From a virus, in the IMG/VR virus record IMGVR_UViG_3300045049_000035, positions 1 to 24,634 of that record: a stretch of 24,634 bases of DNA, one strand, 5' to 3'. Position numbers and translations under genes: made by a program. A model generated the notes under the pieces. The model did no database searches, had not been told where the DNA came from, and worked only from the letters and a program-made list of their open reading frames with translations. This document shows positions 2,013-10,831 of this stretch, piece by piece (positions within the stretch are counted from its first letter, which is position 1; each line of letters begins with the position of its first letter).

Positions 2013-2351
2013 ATGGCTCAAGGCAAGAAAACAGGCGGACGGGGCAAAGGAACGCCCAACAAGGCCACAGCTGACGCACGAGCGGCGATCGCGCTGTTCG
2101 TGGATGGGAATGCGCACCGGCTCCAGGGCTGGCTGGACAGCATTGCAGACGGTTTGAGAGACGAACCGGACAAGGAAGGGAATCCAGGGAAGTGGATTGT
2201 CGAACCCAACCCTCAGAAGGCGTTCGAGCTATTCCAGTCCGTGATCGAGTATCACGTCCCGAAGCTCGCGCGCATGGAAGGCGACGTGAACGTGAAGGCC
2301 AAGGGAGACATTAACGTCAACGTGAGGTTCCACGACCCGAATGGACGTTGA
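2013..2351 (+). CDS. terS: Terminase small subunit-like protein
   Basis: A 112-residue protein that begins with a basic Gly-rich segment (GKKTGGRGKGTPNKATAD). This GGRxKGTPNK pattern is widespread in phage small-terminase-like proteins. A helical region (residues 20-50 and 66-85) follows, and a strand-like tail rich in Asn, Val and Asp (DVNVKAKGDINVNVRF) ends the protein. Small subunits recognise the packaging site and regulate the large-subunit ATPase; the basic N-terminus would contact DNA. The gene directly precedes and overlaps the large subunit by 11 bases, the classical order. No strong ribosome-binding site is visible at the start. Identification rests on the N-terminal motif and position. 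Confidence 0.75.
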   Translation: MAQGKKTGGRGKGTPNKATADARAAIALFVDGNAHRLQGWLDSIADGLRDEPDKEGNPGKWIVEPNPQKAFELFQSVIEYHVPKLARMEGDVNVKAKGDINVNVRFHDPNGR

Positions 2352-3627
2352 CGCCGACTTCCCGGCCAAGCTGCGTCCGCTGTTCGAGCGTGCGCCGTAC
2401 AAGGCGCTTCGCGGTGGTCGCGGCGGCGGCAAGAGTTGGGGAGTCGCTCGAGCGCTACTCATCATCGGTCTGCAGCGTCCTATCCGCGTTCTGTGCACTC
2501 GAGAAACGCAGAAATCGATTCGAGATTCAGTCCACAAGCTGCTGGTTGACCAGATTGCCCGCATGGGGCTCGCGGCTCATTACTCGGTGCAGCAGGTGCA
2601 GATCACCGGCAACCGTGAGTGGATCATTGACGGCATTCCCTACCGGACCGAGTTCGTATTCGCGGGCTTGTCTGACCTGACGGCCGATAGCATCAAGTCA
2701 TTCGAGGGAGCAGATATCGTCTGGGTGGAGGAGGGCCAGGTTGTCACCGATCGTTCCTGGACCATTCTGATCCCGACCATCCGCAAGGAGGGGTCCGAGA
2801 TCTGGATCACCTTCAACCCCGAGCTCGATACCGATCCGACCTGGGAGCGGTTCATCGAGCACCCACCGAAAGGCACGATCAACATCGAGCTCAATTGGCG
2901 TGACAATCCCTGGTTCACGCAGTCGATGAACGAGAAGCGGTTGCACGATAAGGCCGTACTGGCGCCGTACGAATACGACTGGATCTGGGAAGGGAAGTGC
3001 AAGCCGGCGGTCACCGGCGCGATCTACGCGGACCAGATGGCGCAGCTCTTCGCGGAAGGCCGGGTGGGCGACTATCCGGTGAACGCCTTCTCGCCGGTCT
3101 ACGCGGTCTTCGACCTCGGCTGGAACGACGCGACCGCTATCGTGGTGTGCCAGCGTGAGGTATCCGCTCTTCGGGTGATCGACTACGTTGAGGACCATCA
3201 CAAGACGCTCGACCATTACTCGGGGCTCCTGCGCGCGAAGGATTACGTGGTCACGGAGCTCTATCTTCCGCACGACGGAGCTCACAGCCATCTCACGGGT
3301 CCGAGCGCTCAGCGAACGCTCGAGGATCTCAAGTGGCGGGTGAACATCCTGCCCAACCAGGATGTGGAGGACGGCATTCGCACGCTGCGGATGTCGTTCA
3401 AGTCGCTCTACATCGATAAGCGCTGCACCCGGCTGATCGAATGCCTGAAGCGCTATCGCCGGGTGATCCCGCCCTCCACGATGGAGCCGGCGAAGCCGAA
3501 GCACGACGAGTACTCGCACGGCGCGGATGCCATGCGCTACGCCGCGCTGGCGGCTCCTCAATTCACTTCCGGCGGGTTTGAAGGAGGAATGAAGCTCCCG
3601 AAGCTCGACTATCGCTGGAAGCCGTAG
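2341..3627 (+). CDS. terL: Terminase large subunit (DNA-packaging ATPase and nuclease)
   Basis: A 428-residue protein with both motor and nuclease domains. Walker A is at about residues 25-32 (GGRGGGKS). Walker B with catalytic acids is at about 125-131 (DIVWVEE), and a coupling-type segment WITFNPE lies at 155-161. The C-terminal RNase H-like nuclease starts at about residue 254 with Asp258 in VFDLGWND and ends with the conserved HGADAMRY, whose Asp is residue 396. Length and layout fit the Terminase_3/PBSX-like group. The protein docks on the portal, pumps DNA into the prohead using ATP and cuts concatemers. The start overlaps terS by 11 bases. All key motifs are intact. Confidence 0.95.
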   Translation: MDVDADFPAKLRPLFERAPYKALRGGRGGGKSWGVARALLIIGLQRPIRVLCTRETQKSIRDSVHKLLVDQIARMGLAAHYSVQQVQITGNREWIIDGIPYRTEFVFAGLSDLTADSIKSFEGADIVWVEEGQVVTDRSWTILIPTIRKEGSEIWITFNPELDTDPTWERFIEHPPKGTINIELNWRDNPWFTQSMNEKRLHDKAVLAPYEYDWIWEGKCKPAVTGAIYADQMAQLFAEGRVGDYPVNAFSPVYAVFDLGWNDATAIVVCQREVSALRVIDYVEDHHKTLDHYSGLLRAKDYVVTELYLPHDGAHSHLTGPSAQRTLEDLKWRVNILPNQDVEDGIRTLRMSFKSLYIDKRCTRLIECLKRYRRVIPPSTMEPAKPKHDEYSHGADAMRYAALAAPQFTSGGFEGGMKLPKLDYRWKP

Positions 3628-3640
3628 GTTGCAACATCCC

Positions 3641-3865
3641 ATGCCGCGGAAAGACGACCATGTCCGACCAGAAAGCGATCGCCGCGAGATGACCCGGCTG
3701 ATGCAGATTCACGTCGACACGCATCCTGAGCGGATTGCACGCCGATATGGCGTGACCGCGCAGTACGTCCGTCAGTTATGGCGGGAGCGGCTTCAGCAGG
3801 ATATGGCCACCTACGAAGAGGCCTTCCGCGCGTTCGCTGCCCGTGTTCTCAAACGCATGCCCTGA
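3641..3865 (+). CDS. Small helix-turn-helix protein
   Basis: A 74-residue basic protein. Residues about 29-51 (PERIARRYGVTAQYVRQLWR) fit a helix-turn-helix: a first helix, a Gly-Val turn, then a recognition helix. A C-terminal amphipathic helix follows. ATG at 3641 is preferred; a TTG at 3629 is an in-frame alternative. Neither has a clear ribosome-binding site. It follows terL by 13 bases and precedes the basic low-complexity genes. It could be a small DNA-binding regulator or a packaging accessory factor. The helix-turn-helix reading is from pattern only, without a family match. Confidence 0.65.
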   Translation: MPRKDDHVRPESDRREMTRLMQIHVDTHPERIARRYGVTAQYVRQLWRERLQQDMATYEEAFRAFAARVLKRMP

Positions 3866-3878
3866 CACTGGAGTTCCC

Positions 3879-4175
3879 ATGGCATTTCGCAAGAGTCGCA
3901 TGACGTCCCCGGAAGAGAGCGGTGAGGGGGCGCGCGCTTCCCGTGGTGGCAAGCCAGCACGCGAGGAGGGTGGCTTTTCGGATGGTGAATTCGGTCGCGG
4001 CTCGACGCCGTATCGCAAGAGCCACAGCGCATCCCCGGGGACGCTGAAGCAGCACGACGCGACTGCCGGTCGCGGAGCTTCCGGCATCTTCGGGGGCGCG
4101 GATCAGCACAAATCCCACTCCGAGGATCTCGAGCATCCACAGTCACATGCCGAGTTCGAAGAGCTGGGCCGATGA
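3879..4175 (+). CDS. Low-complexity basic protein with a shared C-terminal module
   Basis: A 98-residue, Gly/Ser/Arg/His-rich, probably disordered protein (MAFRKSRMTSPEES...). ATG at 3879 is chosen because TGGAG at 3869-3873 precedes it; the upstream extension lacks support. From about residue 51 to the end it resembles the C-terminus of the next gene. Both contain SPG, then TAGRG (62-66 here), then DxHK, then SED (81-83) and a closing SH-x-x-FE-x-LG. This suggests duplication of a C-terminal module. The stop overlaps the next start as ATGA. Function unknown. Position between terminase and a structural gene suggests a virion or DNA-associated role. Confidence 0.7.
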   Translation: MAFRKSRMTSPEESGEGARASRGGKPAREEGGFSDGEFGRGSTPYRKSHSASPGTLKQHDATAGRGASGIFGGADQHKSHSEDLEHPQSHAEFEELGR

Positions 4176-4753
4176 AACTCAAGCGCGCGAATCAGCCGCA
4201 TCATGGCCAGGGTGAGCACGGCCGCGTCCGTACCCACCATGGCCTGATGGGCGGTCCCTCGAGCGCGCACATGCCCCAGCGCAAGAACAGCGGGTTCGAC
4301 GATCGCAAGGGCTACAAGGGCTCGGCTCAGGCTGAGTTCGGCTCGAAACACTCGGGCCGCGCGCCGCTCGTTGATCGTGAGGCGGGCCACTACCACCCGA
4401 TCGGCCACGGCTCCTCGCGCCAATTCGGTGAGGACAGCCGCGAGACTCGCCGTATGAACGGCGAGGTCACCGATCGCGAAGGAAGCGCCCGCCGCGATGG
4501 TTACCATACTGGCAAGCCATCCCGAGGGGACACCAATGTTCGCCGCGGCGAGGTGGGAAACGGTAAGGGTTCGGCTGCGCCAGGCCTCGGGAAAGGGCCA
4601 GGCGTACGTGGCTCGCCAGGTTCGCATCTGGGTACGGCTGGACGGGGCGGCGCAGGCCGACTCGGCATGCACGACGGTCACAAGGGCCCGCAGCCGAAGA
4701 AGCTGTCCGAGGATATTAGCCACGAATCCTTCGAGCGCCTCGGGGCCGACTAA
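4172..4753 (+). CDS. Gly/His/Arg-rich low-complexity protein, partial paralogue of the preceding gene
   Basis: A 193-residue protein with many Gly, His, Arg, Ser and Asp residues and almost no hydrophobic core, so it is probably disordered or folds on a partner. Short basic/Gly segments recur (HHGQGEHGR, GNGKGSAAPG, GTAGRGGAGR). Residues 147-193 resemble the end of the preceding protein: GSPG, TAGRG (155-159), SED (179-181) and SHESFERLG (183-191). The start is an ATGA overlap, and the stop overlaps the next start (TAATG). The high positive charge fits contact with packaged DNA, but function is unknown. The high-GC repeats could also create alternative frames, yet only this frame keeps the coupled starts. 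Confidence 0.7.
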   Translation: MKLKRANQPHHGQGEHGRVRTHHGLMGGPSSAHMPQRKNSGFDDRKGYKGSAQAEFGSKHSGRAPLVDREAGHYHPIGHGSSRQFGEDSRETRRMNGEVTDREGSARRDGYHTGKPSRGDTNVRRGEVGNGKGSAAPGLGKGPGVRGSPGSHLGTAGRGGAGRLGMHDGHKGPQPKKLSEDISHESFERLGAD

Positions 4754-4932
4754 TGCCGAGCAAGAGCGGCAAACAGCATCGCCTGATGGAGATGGTCGCT
4801 CACGATTCGGCGGCAGCTAAACGAGTCGGTATCCCTCAATCAGTCGGTCGCGACTTCGTCGAGGCTGATAAGTCCGAAGGCAAGCATTTCCGCGGTCCCA
4901 AGAAGGGCCGTACACGTCATCGATTCGCGTGA
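4753..4932 (+). CDS. Small basic hypothetical protein
   Basis: A 59-residue protein starting MPSKSGKQHRLMEMVAHD and ending in a Lys/Arg/His tail (PKKGRTRHRFA). The centre contains AAKRVGIPQSVGRDFVEAD, which looks like a compact helix-turn segment. The start overlaps the preceding stop as TAATG. The reading frame is open and composition-balanced for its whole length, and GAGG follows immediately for the next gene. Short proteins of this style (MPSKSGKQHRLM-like beginning) sit near head genes in some podophages, to my knowledge without an assigned role. A virion-associated DNA-binding function is a guess. Confidence 0.65.
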   Translation: MPSKSGKQHRLMEMVAHDSAAAKRVGIPQSVGRDFVEADKSEGKHFRGPKKGRTRHRFA

Positions 4933-4941
4933 GGTAGAGCG

Positions 4942-5826
4942 ATGTATCTGCAAGGTGGATCTGCATTCACAGGCCGGGGCGGCACGAGCTATTCGGCCAC
5001 GGTCCCGACCGACTTCCCGCCGAGTGACATGGCGCTCGCCTTCGCGAATGGTTGGCAGCAGATGTCACTCGCAACCTTCCCGGGGCTGATCGATGTCCCG
5101 CAGAACGGCGTCGCGAACCCCCTTGGGGCTGTCCCGCAGACGAAGCTCGCGCAGACCGCAATTCCTTTCATCATCGCGCCCACCGGCACGATGGCGAACA
5201 ACGGTGCCGTGACGCTCGGCGTCGCCCTTCCGGCGACCTATTCGAACGGCTGTTACCTGTACCTGCCGGCCAACGCCATTTCGGCCAGCTCTGCTGCGGG
5301 CTGGTACTACACGGTCATGTCGTCCACGACGGTGGGCACGGTGTACAACCTGACATACACCGCCGGTCAGCCGTATGTTCCGAGCTCCACCACGGGATTG
5401 GGCTTCACCACCACGGGGCCCGGTGCCTTCACCGGCGTGTCAACAGCGGTCACGGGCCCCAACTGGACGCTGCCGGCCAACACCATGGGTCCGAACGGCG
5501 TGCTCGAGATGGCGGCTGTGTACGGCTGCTCCGGCACCACCAGTAGCAAGACGGTCGCCATCAAGCTCGGGTCCGCGACGATCTACTCCCAGGCGACTAC
5601 GACGGCTGCGAACGTTGCCGCCCTCGCGTTGCTCACCTGTCAGAACCAGGGTCTGACCAACGCGCAGGTTTCGAACCAGACCGGCTCGGTGGGATTCTCC
5701 GCAACCGGCCAGACATACTCAACGCAGGACACCACGACCAACCTGACTCTGGCGCTGGTGGGAACGAAGGTGGCTGCCGACTTCTTGATCTTCGACGCCT
5801 TCTCGGCGACGGTGACGCCCGGCTGA
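4942..5826 (+). CDS. Beta-rich virion structural protein (decoration or fibre-like)
   Basis: A 294-residue Thr/Ser/Gly/Ala-rich protein made of alternating strand-like segments. The N-terminus (MYLQGGSAFTGRGGTSYSA) is flexible. The C-terminal third (about 180-294) looks like a jelly-roll: VLEMAAVYGC, SKTVAIKLGSATIYSQ, and a closing TNLTLALVG followed by ADFLIFDAFSATVTPG. That ending is typical of phage surface or receptor-binding-type domains. GAGG at 4931-4934 precedes ATG 4942. It lies upstream of the portal rather than with the fibres, so a head fibre or decoration role is as likely as a tail role. No enzymatic motif is visible. Confidence 0.65.
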   Translation: MYLQGGSAFTGRGGTSYSATVPTDFPPSDMALAFANGWQQMSLATFPGLIDVPQNGVANPLGAVPQTKLAQTAIPFIIAPTGTMANNGAVTLGVALPATYSNGCYLYLPANAISASSAAGWYYTVMSSTTVGTVYNLTYTAGQPYVPSSTTGLGFTTTGPGAFTGVSTAVTGPNWTLPANTMGPNGVLEMAAVYGCSGTTSSKTVAIKLGSATIYSQATTTAANVAALALLTCQNQGLTNAQVSNQTGSVGFSATGQTYSTQDTTTNLTLALVGTKVAADFLIFDAFSATVTPG

Positions 5827-6001: not shown

Positions 6002-6155
6002 GCGCGTCCAGCGCAAGCGGGAATTGCGGGAAGCCTTGAAAAGCATGATTTCCCGCGAGCATCGCTTCGGGATCCGCGAGGATTGCCGCGCCGAGTTGGA
6101 CCAGGGTTGGGACCGGGTGCTCGACCTGATGGAGGCGTTCGTCCGTGGCGTATGA
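5961..6155 (+). CDS. Small charged helical hypothetical protein
   Basis: A 64-residue protein with a basic N-terminal half (RVQRKRELREALKSM) and an acidic, helical C-terminal half (DQGWDRVLDLMEAFVRG). The longest start is TTG at 5961, with AAAGG about 9 bases upstream. In-frame TTG 6024 and ATG 6045 would give shorter products. It overlaps the previous coiled-coil gene by 41 bases and the portal gene by 11 bases. The GGAGG that serves the portal lies within its 3' end, supporting coupled translation. Function unknown. Confidence 0.55.
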   Translation: MARSQKSKSTLVDERVQRKRELREALKSMISREHRFGIREDCRAELDQGWDRVLDLMEAFVRGV

Positions 6156-8403
6156 AGGCCCGACCAACGGCGCCGATTCGCCGAGTCCGAATCGCAACAG
6201 CAAGATGACCGATGAGGAGTTGCTGGCCCTCATCGCTTCCTACGAACGCGCGTCTCTCGGCTCACAGGTAGCCGCTGGCGCCACGATCTCCACGACGGTC
6301 TACCCGTCGAATGCGGTTATGACGACGTTGGAGATCGATCGCTACAACGCCTTGAACGCCTTTCTCGCGCGCCCGCTCGGGAATGAGATCGAGAATCGCT
6401 CCCAGGTCGTGATCCCCGTCGTGCGCGATACGGTTATGTGGATGCTTCCACAGCTCATGCGCATCTTTGCGGCGGCTAAGTCTGTCTGCCGGTTCGATCC
6501 TGAGAATCAGGCCGATGTCGCACAGGCGGAAGCTGAGACCACCGTCGTCAATCACATTTTTATGCAGCAGAATGACGGTCTGCTGATCCTCCACGATCAG
6601 TTCTGGGATGCGCTCCTGATGCGCAACGGATATGTGGAGGTGTACACCAAGGAGGAGAAGCAGGTTTCCGAGGAGCGGTATACCGGTCTCAGCGAGATCG
6701 AACTGGCTGCGCTCCTGCAGGATAAGGATGACGAGAAGCTCGAGGTGATCGAGCAGAAAGAGTATTCCGCCGACGTTCCGGCCCCGACGCTGATGCAAGG
6801 GCAGCCAGCATACTCGCCGACAGCGACATTCGATATCAGGATCCGACGCACCGCGAAGGTCAAACGCACGTGCGTAGAGTGTCTGCCACCGGAGGAAATG
6901 CGCGTTACCCCGCGCGCTCGGCAGGGGATGGAAGGCATCGTATTTTCGATGCATCAGACATCCAAGGCGCGGTCTGATCTGCTGACAGACGGGTATGACC
7001 GCGACTGCGTGTTGTCGGCTGCCGCCGGCCGCCCGAATTGGCTCGAGATCGATGCGCTGGCCCGCAACCAGGTCGTGGACCAGCTTTCGGTCGAGAACCC
7101 ATCAGACTTCGCCATGCAGGAGATCGAAGTCCGCAAGGCGATCATCAAAGTGGACTTCGACGGTGACAAAATCGCGGAGCTTCGCCGTGTGGTGATCCTG
7201 GGCGACAAGATCGCAGAGAACGAGGTGATCGAGGAGACGCCGTTCGTCTCCATGTCGGCCGTGCGAATGCCGCATCGTCATACGGGCATTTCGGTCTATG
7301 ACCTCGTGATGGACCTGCAGGTCATCCAGACGGATCTCTGGAGGCAGGGTCTCGACAACCTCAAGATCGCTAACAATCAGCGGGTCGCAGTCGATTGGCA
7401 GAACGTCAACATGGACGATCTGCTCTCGAGCCGGCCGGGTGGCGTGGTGCGCGGTCGTGGGCCGCCGAGCACCTGGATTGCGCCAATCGTTCAGCCGTCC
7501 AATGTGGTCGATCAGGTGATTCCCGCGCTCGAGTACATCGATCAGATGCGCTCGAACCGCACCGGCATCGGCAAGGGCACGATGGGGCTGGACGCGGATG
7601 AGCTCCAGAACGTCACCAAGGGCGGCCAACTGGCCGCGATGTCGGCGGCGAGCCTGATCCTCGAACTGATTGCTCGGCTGCTCGCCGAGGGCGTGAAGGG
7701 GATCTTCCTCAAGATCCATTCCGAGTTGATGCGGCACCATGACAAGCCGCTTGAGTTCGAGATCGCCGGGAAGTGGATTACGGTCGATCCGTCCCAATGG
7801 CGGCGCCGGTCGAAGGTGACGCCGAATGTTGGGCTCGGGTCGGGCAACCGCGAGGAAATGCGAGCCAACGTGCAGATTCTCGGCCAGGCGCAGCAGATGG
7901 TCGCGCAGATGGGGCTGGTGGGCCCGAAGCAGGGCTGGGAACTGTTCAAGATCATCTGCGAGGCGCTCGGTTTCAGTACGCCTGAGCGGTTCGCTATGGA
8001 TCCGGCAAGCCCTGAGTACGCCCAGCACTTGCAGCAGATGCAGCAGTCTCAGCAGATGATGCCGCCGGCCCCCCAGGTCCAGGCTGCTCAGATTCGCGCT
8101 CAGACGGAATCCCAGAAGCAGGTGAACGAAACGCAGCGCGCGGCCATGAAGCTGAACGCCGAGATGCTCCACGCTCGGCAGCAGTTGCTACAAGACCAGA
8201 CGCAGCACGTTCAGACGATGAATCATGAGGCGATTCAAGGTCACGCGGATCGCCAGATCCAGCTCAATGATCAGCACTTGCAGATTCTGCTCGCGCTGAT
8301 CAAAACGTTCTCCGCGATCGAGGCGGCGAAGGCGAAATCAGAGGCAGTCGGAGGCGCGGAAGTGGGCGCAGATATCACTGCAGCCGATAGGGCAATCGAA
8401 TGA
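6145..8403 (+). CDS. Portal protein (P22-like)
   Basis: A 752-residue protein, close to the length of P22-family portals. Residues about 50-330 form the clip/wing part with conserved-looking segments (TVVNHIFMQQNDGLLILHD, FWDALLMRNGYVEVY). The stem and crown region follows. The C-terminal ~120 residues are Gln/Ala/Met-rich helix (HLQQMQQSQQMMPP), like the long barrel domain of P22-type portals. Portals form the dodecameric ring at one capsid vertex, bind terminase during packaging and later the adaptor. GTG at 6145 is chosen because GGAGG at 6131-6135 is 9 bases upstream; ATG 6205 is the alternative. The gene ends with an ATGA overlap to the next. Confidence 0.88.
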   Translation: MAYEGPTNGADSPSPNRNSKMTDEELLALIASYERASLGSQVAAGATISTTVYPSNAVMTTLEIDRYNALNAFLARPLGNEIENRSQVVIPVVRDTVMWMLPQLMRIFAAAKSVCRFDPENQADVAQAEAETTVVNHIFMQQNDGLLILHDQFWDALLMRNGYVEVYTKEEKQVSEERYTGLSEIELAALLQDKDDEKLEVIEQKEYSADVPAPTLMQGQPAYSPTATFDIRIRRTAKVKRTCVECLPPEEMRVTPRARQGMEGIVFSMHQTSKARSDLLTDGYDRDCVLSAAAGRPNWLEIDALARNQVVDQLSVENPSDFAMQEIEVRKAIIKVDFDGDKIAELRRVVILGDKIAENEVIEETPFVSMSAVRMPHRHTGISVYDLVMDLQVIQTDLWRQGLDNLKIANNQRVAVDWQNVNMDDLLSSRPGGVVRGRGPPSTWIAPIVQPSNVVDQVIPALEYIDQMRSNRTGIGKGTMGLDADELQNVTKGGQLAAMSAASLILELIARLLAEGVKGIFLKIHSELMRHHDKPLEFEIAGKWITVDPSQWRRRSKVTPNVGLGSGNREEMRANVQILGQAQQMVAQMGLVGPKQGWELFKIICEALGFSTPERFAMDPASPEYAQHLQQMQQSQQMMPPAPQVQAAQIRAQTESQKQVNETQRAAMKLNAEMLHARQQLLQDQTQHVQTMNHEAIQGHADRQIQLNDQHLQILLALIKTFSAIEAAKAKSEAVGGAEVGADITAADRAIE

Positions 8404-8731: not shown

Positions 8732-8757
8732 ATGCCGGATACCTAGATTTCCGGCAT
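8732..8757 (+). promoter_or_regulatory. RNA hairpin overlapping the scaffold start codon
   Basis: ATGCCGGA at 8732-8739 is perfectly complementary to TCCGGCAT at 8750-8757, with a 10-base loop. The right arm contains the first two bases of the scaffold ATG (8756-8758). No purine-rich ribosome-binding site is visible upstream, unlike at most starts in this operon. There is no T-run after the stem, so it is not an intrinsic terminator. A role in limiting or timing scaffold translation is inferred. Confidence 0.4.
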
Positions 8758-9838
8758 GTCGCTCGAAAGTGCAGGCGCCGAGAGCGCCCCTCAAAATCCC
8801 CTCGGCGGCGCGCAAGCGCTCGAGAATCGTTTCGAGAATCTCTGGCAGGGCGGGGCGTTCGATTCCCAGGACCCTCGCGAGGCGGCGCAGCTTCGCGCCG
8901 AGCGCGGCCAGGCATCCGCGCCGGAACAGCAACAGCCGGTCAACGGAAAGTTACCGGCTCAGCAGCCCACGCAGGCCGTTCCCGAGCAGCAGACCGAACA
9001 GCCTGAGGAAGGCCCGGAATACGCCGATCTCGATGACTACCTGACCCGATCGAACATTGAACGCGAGTCGTTCATGTCGATGCCGGTCAACGTCAAGATT
9101 GACGGCAAGACCGAGCGCGCGACCCTCGCGGATCTCGTCAAGAACTACGGCCTTGAACGGCACTTCCAGGCCAAATCCATTGCCTTCGCCGAGCAACAGC
9201 GCGCCTGGGAAGGTGAGCGCGAGAAGGCCAAGCAGGCGCTCGGCCAGCATCTGAACAGCGCCGAGACGCTCGCGAAGCTCGCTCATCAGCAGCTTCTCGG
9301 CGAATACCAGGGAATTGATTGGAACAAGTTGCGTATGGAAGACCCGATCCAGTGGTCGGTGCGCAATCAGGAGTTCCAGAACCGGGCGAATCAGATCCAA
9401 CAGCATCTCGCCCAAGTTCAGCATCAGCAGCAGCAACTTGCCCAGCAAGCCGAGCAAGAGCGTCTCGCCAAGCTCCCGCAGGAGCGCGAGAAGATGTTGG
9501 ATGCGCGCCCTGAGTGGCGCGATGACACCAAGTTTCAAGCCGCGCGAGCCGAAATGACCGGTTACGCGCGCAAGTTGGGGTATTCAGACGCCGAGATAGG
9601 CAGCATCTTCGACCACCGCTTCATGCTGATTCTGCATGACGCGGCGCGATTTGCTCAGCTCCAAGCGCAGGCACCCCAGGCGGCCAAACGCGTGCGCGCC
9701 GCGCCTCAAATGGCGAACCCAGGCGCACGTATCCAGCGCGACCCCAATCAGGCCGCGCTATCCCAAGCCAAAGAGCGGTGGAAGCGCAACCCGCGCGATC
9801 AAGACGCAGCGGTGGCGCTCTTCGACCGGCTTGCCTGA
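8756..9838 (+). CDS. Capsid scaffolding protein
   Basis: A 360-residue acidic/Gln-rich helical protein placed directly before the major capsid gene, the normal position of a scaffold. The N-terminal ~90 residues are disordered and Gln/Pro/Glu-rich. A compact segment follows at about 100-145 (SMPVNVKIDGKTERATLADL). A long coiled coil (about 140-260, with runs such as QHQQQQLAQQAEQERLAK) leads to a basic C-terminal region (RWKRNPRDQDAAVALFDRLA) that may bind the capsid protein. An in-frame TAG at 8744-8746 excludes a longer start. Scaffolds guide prohead assembly and leave before or during packaging. The assignment rests on composition, architecture and order. Confidence 0.8.
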   Translation: MSLESAGAESAPQNPLGGAQALENRFENLWQGGAFDSQDPREAAQLRAERGQASAPEQQQPVNGKLPAQQPTQAVPEQQTEQPEEGPEYADLDDYLTRSNIERESFMSMPVNVKIDGKTERATLADLVKNYGLERHFQAKSIAFAEQQRAWEGEREKAKQALGQHLNSAETLAKLAHQQLLGEYQGIDWNKLRMEDPIQWSVRNQEFQNRANQIQQHLAQVQHQQQQLAQQAEQERLAKLPQEREKMLDARPEWRDDTKFQAARAEMTGYARKLGYSDAEIGSIFDHRFMLILHDAARFAQLQAQAPQAAKRVRAAPQMANPGARIQRDPNQAALSQAKERWKRNPRDQDAAVALFDRLA

Positions 9839-9853
9839 CCCTGGAGCATTCCC

Positions 9854-10831
9854 GTGACCGTTCCGACAAACACCCTGCAGGTCTACACGCAGACGAATAT
9901 CCGTGAAGACCTGATCGATGCGATCTACAACGTTGATCCGTTCAAGACCCCGCTCTTCAACATGGCCAAGAAGGCCGAGGCTCGCCAGACCTACCACGAG
10001 TGGGATGTCGATGCCCTCGCCGCACAGAACCTGAACAACGCGGCGGTCGAAGGTGACAACCCGACGAATATCGCCATCACGGCCACCGGCCGCATGGGAA
10101 ATTACACGCAGATCTCGACCAAGACGATCCAGATTTCGGGAACGTCTCAGAGTGTTGTGGCTGCCGGTGGCTCGAACAAGATGGGCTACCAGCTGCTGAA
10201 GAAGTCCAAAGAGCTGAAGCGCGACATCGAAGGTATTTTGACGGCGAACACTGCACGGGCCGCCGGCACTTCTTCGACCGCTCGCTTGCTCTCGGGCTGG
10301 CCGTGCTGGGTCTGGACCAACTCGATTTCGGTCGGTACTGGCACCGCGCCGACGGGCACCACGACCGTTGCCGGCCAGACGTTCTACAACGGTACCGCCG
10401 CCATGACGCACGGCGGCTCGGCTGGTGTGACTGAAGCGAACGTCAAAACTGTCCTCCAGAACATCTACAAGAGCTCGGGCGAGTCTCCCGAGTACTGCCT
10501 GCTCTCGCCGAAGAACAAGCAGAACGTTTCGGGTTTCAGCGGCCCCGGCACCCGTTTCATTGAAGTCGAGGACAGCACGCTCCTGACGAAAGTGGACGTG
10601 TACGAGAGCGACTTCGGCGAAGTGAAGATGATCCCGGACATTTTCCTCGCGACTTCGGGTGATATGGATTTCGTGAACCCGAACTACATCCGGGTGGCAT
10701 ATCTACGCCCGTTCCAGACGATTCCGCTCGCGAAGACCGGCGATAGCGATCAGAAAATGTTGCTCGTCGAGTACACCCTCGAGATGGGCAACGAGCACGC
10801 ACACGGCTCGATCTACGACACCAACGGCTGA
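9854..10831 (+). CDS. Major capsid protein (SU10 / DUF5309 family)
   Basis: A 325-residue protein. The N-terminus (VPTNTLQVYTQTNIREDLID) and the following IYNVDPFKTPLFNM match the characteristic opening of the SU10/DUF5309 capsid family. Central ISTKTIQISGTSQSV and the helix KKSKELKRDIEGIL correspond to the HK97-like spine helix region. The C-terminal half includes the P-domain-like sheets and MIPDIFLATSGDMDFV. GTG at 9854 is chosen, with TGGAG at 9842-9846. It forms the icosahedral shell. No protease gene is visible, which agrees with a separate scaffold rather than processed delta domains. Confidence 0.9.
   Translation: MTVPTNTLQVYTQTNIREDLIDAIYNVDPFKTPLFNMAKKAEARQTYHEWDVDALAAQNLNNAAVEGDNPTNIAITATGRMGNYTQISTKTIQISGTSQSVVAAGGSNKMGYQLLKKSKELKRDIEGILTANTARAAGTSSTARLLSGWPCWVWTNSISVGTGTAPTGTTTVAGQTFYNGTAAMTHGGSAGVTEANVKTVLQNIYKSSGESPEYCLLSPKNKQNVSGFSGPGTRFIEVEDSTLLTKVDVYESDFGEVKMIPDIFLATSGDMDFVNPNYIRVAYLRPFQTIPLAKTGDSDQKMLLVEYTLEMGNEHAHGSIYDTNG

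Follow-up and report, generated by a model that had tools for sequence, protein, structure and literature searches.

The window, a 24,634-base IMG/VR virus record, belongs to a phage with an SU10-type head. PHROGs and Pfam identify, all on the plus strand, a terminase large subunit (2341..3627), an SU10-type portal (6145..8403), a head scaffolding protein (8756..9838) and an SU10-type major capsid protein (9854..10831). Between the terminase and the portal sits a cassette of small genes, also on the plus strand. It opens with a 74-amino-acid HTH-like protein (3641..3865), taken from the ORF list, which has a weak match to phrog_836 (E 0.03) and look-alikes, judged by eye, at the equivalent place in the related contigs L003, L005 and L013. 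Protein 1 (3879..4175, 98 amino acids) and protein 2 (4172..4753, 193 amino acids) follow, the start of the second overlapping the stop of the first; both are predicted to be disordered, and both end in the tail described below. Then come protein 3 (4753..4932, 59 amino acids), a member of the phrog_16759 family and a relative of phiKZ PHIKZ165.1, and a 294-amino-acid protein (4942..5826) with an N-terminal block, F.G..G.SY, that recurs on other proteins of relatives. The cassette follows the terminase in the window (3641-5826) and in L013, whereas in L003 (1299-3894) it precedes the terminase large subunit, and it therefore seems to be mobile as a unit. In the phage collection the closest portals are up to 36% identical, and none of six inspected records there with the same portal type has the cassette between terminase and portal. 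Terminase and portal adjoin in five of these (L021, L023-L026); in the sixth, L022, six small genes lie between them, none with a window-type tail. The tailed proteins are thus not essential to this head type.

An earlier note on this DNA had described two adjacent, basic, probably disordered proteins, and the two genes are indeed present at the positions given. Disorder agrees with AlphaFold pLDDT values of 55 for protein 1 and 47 for protein 2. Basic applies to the Gly/Arg/His-rich protein 2 (pI 10.4) and to the 59-amino-acid protein 3 (pI 11.0) but not to protein 1, which has a pI of 6.6 in the window and of 5.5-7.1 among relatives and is thus neutral to acidic. The suggestion that these proteins condense DNA would call for strong positive charge on both tailed proteins; at pI 6.6 and 10.4 they do not share it, and for protein 1 the idea is unsupported. 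In L013, protein 2 has 139 amino acids rather than 193, with much of the middle gone and the N-terminal block and tail retained. Pfam assigned no family to proteins 1-3 and PHROGs none to proteins 1 and 2. Protein 2 had no match at E <= 0.01 in the phage collection, protein 1 and the L013 form of protein 2 gave only chance-level matches in the named collections, and the tail alone gave none there. No relative was found in bacterial genome contigs by profile A5 or profile A4, and a DNA pattern for SED-x-SHxxFExLG returned no contigs beyond those already found.

The tail is laid out as a Gly-rich linker, TAGRGGxGxxGKxDxFKG, followed by SED and then by SHxxFExLG. In protein 1 the linker and SEDLEHPQSHAEFEELG occupy 4059..4169, with the core tag SHAEFEELG at 4143..4169; in protein 2 the linker and LSEDISHESFERLG occupy 4631..4744, with the core tag SHESFERLG at 4718..4744 (all plus strand). 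Profile A6 matches the two copies at E 1.0e-21 and 8.5e-21, values to be read with the fact that it was built from sequences that include both. AlphaFold gives the tail no confident structure in either protein; in protein 2 it models a short, low-confidence helix at residues 185-191, over the core tag. Aligned with BLOSUM62 and gaps of 11/1, residues 51-98 of protein 1 and 147-193 of protein 2 score 77, against 27.1 +/- 5.6 when shuffled, and the full-length proteins score 101, against 46.3 +/- 7.4; in each case 0 of 5000 shuffles reached the observed score. The similarity, first noticed by eye, stands out against the shuffles but goes unseen by composition-adjusted BLASTP of this single pair, whose best match (E 0.047) lies elsewhere in the sequences. 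That blindness is what an artefact of Gly/His/Arg-rich composition would predict, but the shuffle controls refute such an artefact, the similarity returns in four lineages, and the core SHxxFExLG is not low-complexity. We consider this explanation almost certainly wrong.

Six other contigs carry relatives, and together with the window they form four lineages (window/L002, L003/L004, L005/L006 and L013), in all of which the genes for proteins 1 and 2 are adjacent. Within the window, L003, L005 and L013, tail matches tail at p <= 7e-4 (3000 shuffles each), whereas body against body gives p = 0.06, 0.46, 0.29 and 0.09. When the two families, each represented by four sequences, are compared profile against profile, the probability is 96.5% and E 9.6e-10, with the match ending in the tail; the bodies alone give E 0.3 and a probability of 0.2%. 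Searched with the tail profile, each of five whole records yields two copies, no more and no fewer. Ten columns are invariant in the eight aligned tails: G, G, G, G, D and K, then F, E, L and G. The expectation that both SED and FE-x-LG would be conserved therefore holds for the second, invariant in 8/8, and not for the first, which drifts: it is SET in L013, and its offset differs between the protein 1 and protein 2 families. In one relative GSEWFEKLG replaces SHxxFExLG. By shuffles, lineages and profiles alike, a C-terminal module shared by different bodies is borne out.

Plain tandem duplication would make proteins 1 and 2 sisters whose bodies have diverged and whose tail is the best-kept stretch, with no role as a tag. 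Adjacent, overlapping genes would be expected of such sisters, the profile match begins somewhat upstream of the tail, and by pairwise alignment protein 1 could correspond to the C-terminal half of protein 2. The bodies alone are nevertheless unmatched, and the reading is weakened further by L197, a contig whose portal (54-56% identity), scaffold (39%) and capsid (62-67%) resemble those of the window and whose terminase matches in its C-terminal half only, at 34%. Neither protein 1 nor protein 2 was seen in the L197 stretch examined. A DUF6582-like protein there (named by eye, with no Pfam match) and an MPWSPKDA-type protein end in PRSHDEFEKLGGK and PKSHAEFEKLGK; the tails of this pair match at p 3e-4 and the bodies at p 0.14, and all four comparisons with the window tails give p <= 0.0033. 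The name ChaB, considered for MPWSPKDA-type proteins, was dropped; those of L003 and L197 have no Pfam ChaB match, and the sole match, in an L071 protein, is sub-threshold. Within one phage clade, SHxxFExLG is thus found on four or more small proteins that are otherwise unrelated (protein 1, protein 2, the DUF6582-like and the MPWSPKDA-type), and similar sharing between unrelated families occurs elsewhere. The earlier description of a duplicated tail on different bodies understated the sharing, which extends to two more families, and its duplication finds no match in the bodies; we regard simple duplication as unlikely.

Such sharing was then sought in other phages, with ORFs called mechanically and non-genes included. 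Eighty phage loci were fetched with the L013 DUF6582-like protein and its last 18 residues compared with every nearby ORF; the family protein was recognised in 70 of them, reduced to 56 by removing near-identical tails. Eight of 884 ORF pairs score >= 33, where 0.2 are expected by swapping tails between loci and 0.3 by shuffling. In L028, L034 and L040 a DUF6582-like and a DUF6496 protein share about 20 C-terminal residues (the L028 DUF6496 protein has a Pfam E of 5.6e-9); a lower-scoring, His-rich pair in L033 looks like a composition match. DUF6582 matches are below the Pfam cut-off, and the tag lies outside the stretch that the Pfam models match. A first, all-versus-all version of the test gave 18 of 17820 same-locus pairs at >= 35 against 36 of 59292 cross-locus pairs, an excess kept modest by the related proteins among the cross-locus pairs. 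Replication from other starting points was mixed. With DUF6496 as the starting family, four of 268 pairs score >= 33 against 0.45 expected by swapping, three of the four coming from contigs already in the DUF6582-like set or sharing its tag. With the MPWSPKDA type, one of 87 pairs does so against 0.85 by swapping and 0 by shuffling, and only L197 counts. The two scans used 9 of 13 and 27 of 28 loci, reduced to 5 and 19, and add new pairs such as L214, along with L197, with much overlap with earlier contigs.

A second set of 80 loci, near-duplicates included, was fetched with protein 3 (P0003 family); the family protein was recognised in 79, or 33 once near-identical tails were removed. Six pairs score >= 33, against 0.2 expected by shuffling and 4.7 by swapping. 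The swap control failed here, one tag being common to many of the phages in the set, which leaves the shuffle control and the position of the tag as the support for sharing in this family. That tag, ADGIA..GKT, falls in the last 45 amino acids in 133 of 133 occurrences in the protein 3 loci, never within a protein or on the opposite strand, and starts exactly 14 residues from the end in 78 of the 133 ORFs. Its carriers form 27 body clusters, although kinship between short bodies may go undetected, and 47 of the 80 loci hold at least two carriers. L119 (1589-4200) has a run of five small genes whose products differ in body but share an ADGIA.KGKT.GK-type tag at the end. Variants among environmental phages include DRRNDxWGP...ARMK and ADGIAxxGKTxGK, the latter on up to five consecutive genes. 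In L060, L028, L131 and L182 the genes with tags have a portal, scaffold, capsid or terminase gene nearby. The ADGIA tag alone and an ADGIA-tagged 80-amino-acid protein had no match in the named collections, where a longer tagged protein was matched in its body only. Open PMC text, outside which most subscription journals lie, yielded no description of SHxxFExLG, RHRFA or ADGIA..GKT-type tags, and no literature on DUF6582 or DUF6496 in a phage context. A docking or packaging tag would fit such widespread sharing in unrelated phages.

Recombination could also keep tails alike by swapping or converting neighbouring 3' gene ends, a concerted evolution with no selection on the peptide. Some pairs have the codon identity that this would leave: the L028 pair is alike in 52 of 63 bases and 11 of 17 codons (7.6 expected), the L034 pair in 10 of 14 codons (7.2 expected) and the L005 linker in 8 of 10 (4.8 expected), so that some recent exchange is possible there. 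In the window tails, by contrast, identical synonymous codons number 1 of 6 and 2 of 10, where codon usage predicts 3.0 and 4.3, and the L119 tag copies agree near the codon-usage expectation. The likeness of the window tail codons thus does not exceed what codon usage alone would give, which favours selection on the protein over recent copying. The tail is also retained across deep divergence while the bodies change, at 73% against 51% identity among relatives for protein 1 and 54% against 40% for protein 2. Conversion without selection strikes us as very improbable.

Protein 3 may carry a second tag. Its residues 1-43 match phrog_16759 (E 1.8e-18), which places it in that family, and its C-terminus is RHRFA (4915..4929, plus strand). 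In L003 and L004 the DUF6582-like protein ends in SRHRFA and the MPWSPKDA-type protein in RRHRFA; in L013 the DUF6582-like protein ends in GQRFA. RHRFA is thus possibly a second tag of the window's phage, a suggestion from sequence to which we give less weight, the match being short. The phrog_16759 module is found, too, at the N-terminus of proteins of jumbo phages that carry a virion-structural annotation, among them the 847-amino-acid gp322 of Pectobacterium phage CBB (L109 3001-5544). In phiKZ it is the stand-alone gene PHIKZ165.1. Protein 3 of the window likewise stands alone and ends in RHRFA, whereas in CBB the module heads the much longer gp322. The text of the CBB paper yielded no mention of 322 or 321, and open PMC text no literature on PHIKZ165.1.

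Two further observations concern candidate docking modules of other kinds. The F.G..G.SY block, a candidate module at the N-terminus, occurs in the window (4942-5826), in L005 (2429-2647 and 2815-4512) and in L013 (7056-8636), on proteins of 294, 72, 565 and 526 amino acids, some of them tailspike-like. In L013 the terminase large subunit (333-1712) ends in PALKFPKNL and a neighbouring 81-amino-acid protein with a CPIG motif (1899-2144) in APLKFPRNL, so that the small protein may have received a copy of a portal-docking tail; L197 (2050-3390 and 3779-4135) holds a looser echo of this repeat.

The position of the tag and its carriers bears on what it might bind. Across loci totalling 1.35 Mb, with repeat copies of a contig counted once for matches, all 12 matches to SHxxFExLG lie 10-20 amino acids from a C-terminus, and no match is internal or falls on the opposite strand; a 67-amino-acid L003 protein ends in a looser form, SGKEFEGLG. 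The SHxxFExLG carriers are encoded among the head or packaging genes. Among 20 tagged records, the five with SHxxFExLG all match the window's portal (54-99%), capsid (62-100%) and scaffold (39-99%), and the 15 with other tags match none of the three, a correspondence that is confounded by common descent and in which the 15 unmatched records include many fragments. Shared ancestry could produce the same pattern.

Two known systems offer analogies. The capsid targeting sequence of phage T4 is N-terminal and is cleaved by the prohead protease. No protease was found among the eight window proteins, or the two small ones, scanned against PHROGs. In the passages available, the T4 internal proteins IPI-IPIII are described as diverse, small and united only by that sequence, which targets them into the prohead core (PMC3012670). 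The likeness is a short peptide common to otherwise different small proteins of one genome; the difference is that the window tag sits 10-20 amino acids from the C-terminus. Encapsulin cargo, according to the available passages of PMC7355545, is bound to the inner face of an HK97-fold shell through short C-terminal peptides on different proteins, with genes adjoining the shell gene. Here too a C-terminal peptide is conserved on different proteins encoded with shell genes. However, its sequence is unrelated, the head is a true phage head, and the genes of its carriers, although within the head region, do not directly adjoin the capsid gene. We claim membership in neither system.

The simplest reading of these observations is that the carriers all need one partner, most likely a prohead component, and that the tail they share serves as a portable docking tag at the C-terminus; we give this about an even chance. 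The short end is kept, at the protein level, on otherwise unrelated, flexible small proteins, all of which would bind that partner through it. The scaffold, the inner face of the capsid or the portal, the candidate partners in the window, might then load the carriers into the head, possibly to be ejected with the DNA; a virion role for the tagged proteins remains inference. Other phages would use other sequences for the same purpose, and the differences between tags fit each matching its own phage's partner. A partner in the head is made more likely than one elsewhere by the location of the carriers in the head or packaging region, and because SHxxFExLG tracks the window-type portal, scaffold and capsid and persists where the terminase is distant. 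The tag might instead recruit its carriers to a host protease or adaptor, or to a phage complex acting in the cell, as C-terminal peptides are often degradation or adaptor signals. Yet a host partner would favour a single tag per host group, whereas the tags vary by phage, track the head genes and sit on products of the head or packaging region, and we judge a non-virion partner rather improbable.

Extended beyond the window, the docking-tag reading would mean that many tailed phages still uncultivated use an address code at the C-terminus, in which each head type reads its own short peptide and loads into the virion the product of any small gene that acquires it, whatever the body; we offer this tentatively, as the less probable part of the proposal. 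Under such a code, and with the same reserve, the window phage would use SHxxFExLG, possibly with RHRFA, and others ADGIAxxGKTxGK or DRRNDxWGP...ARMK. DUF6582-like and DUF6496 small proteins are frequent carriers in related and other phages, although neither is present in the window cassette. If true, the tag would supply a reason why DUF6582-like, DUF6496 and phrog_16759 small proteins turn up in head regions, as well as off-the-shelf peptides with which foreign cargo could be packed into phage heads. It would also provide a sequence rule for finding phage proteins carried into the cell with the DNA, which are otherwise hidden among hypothetical small genes.
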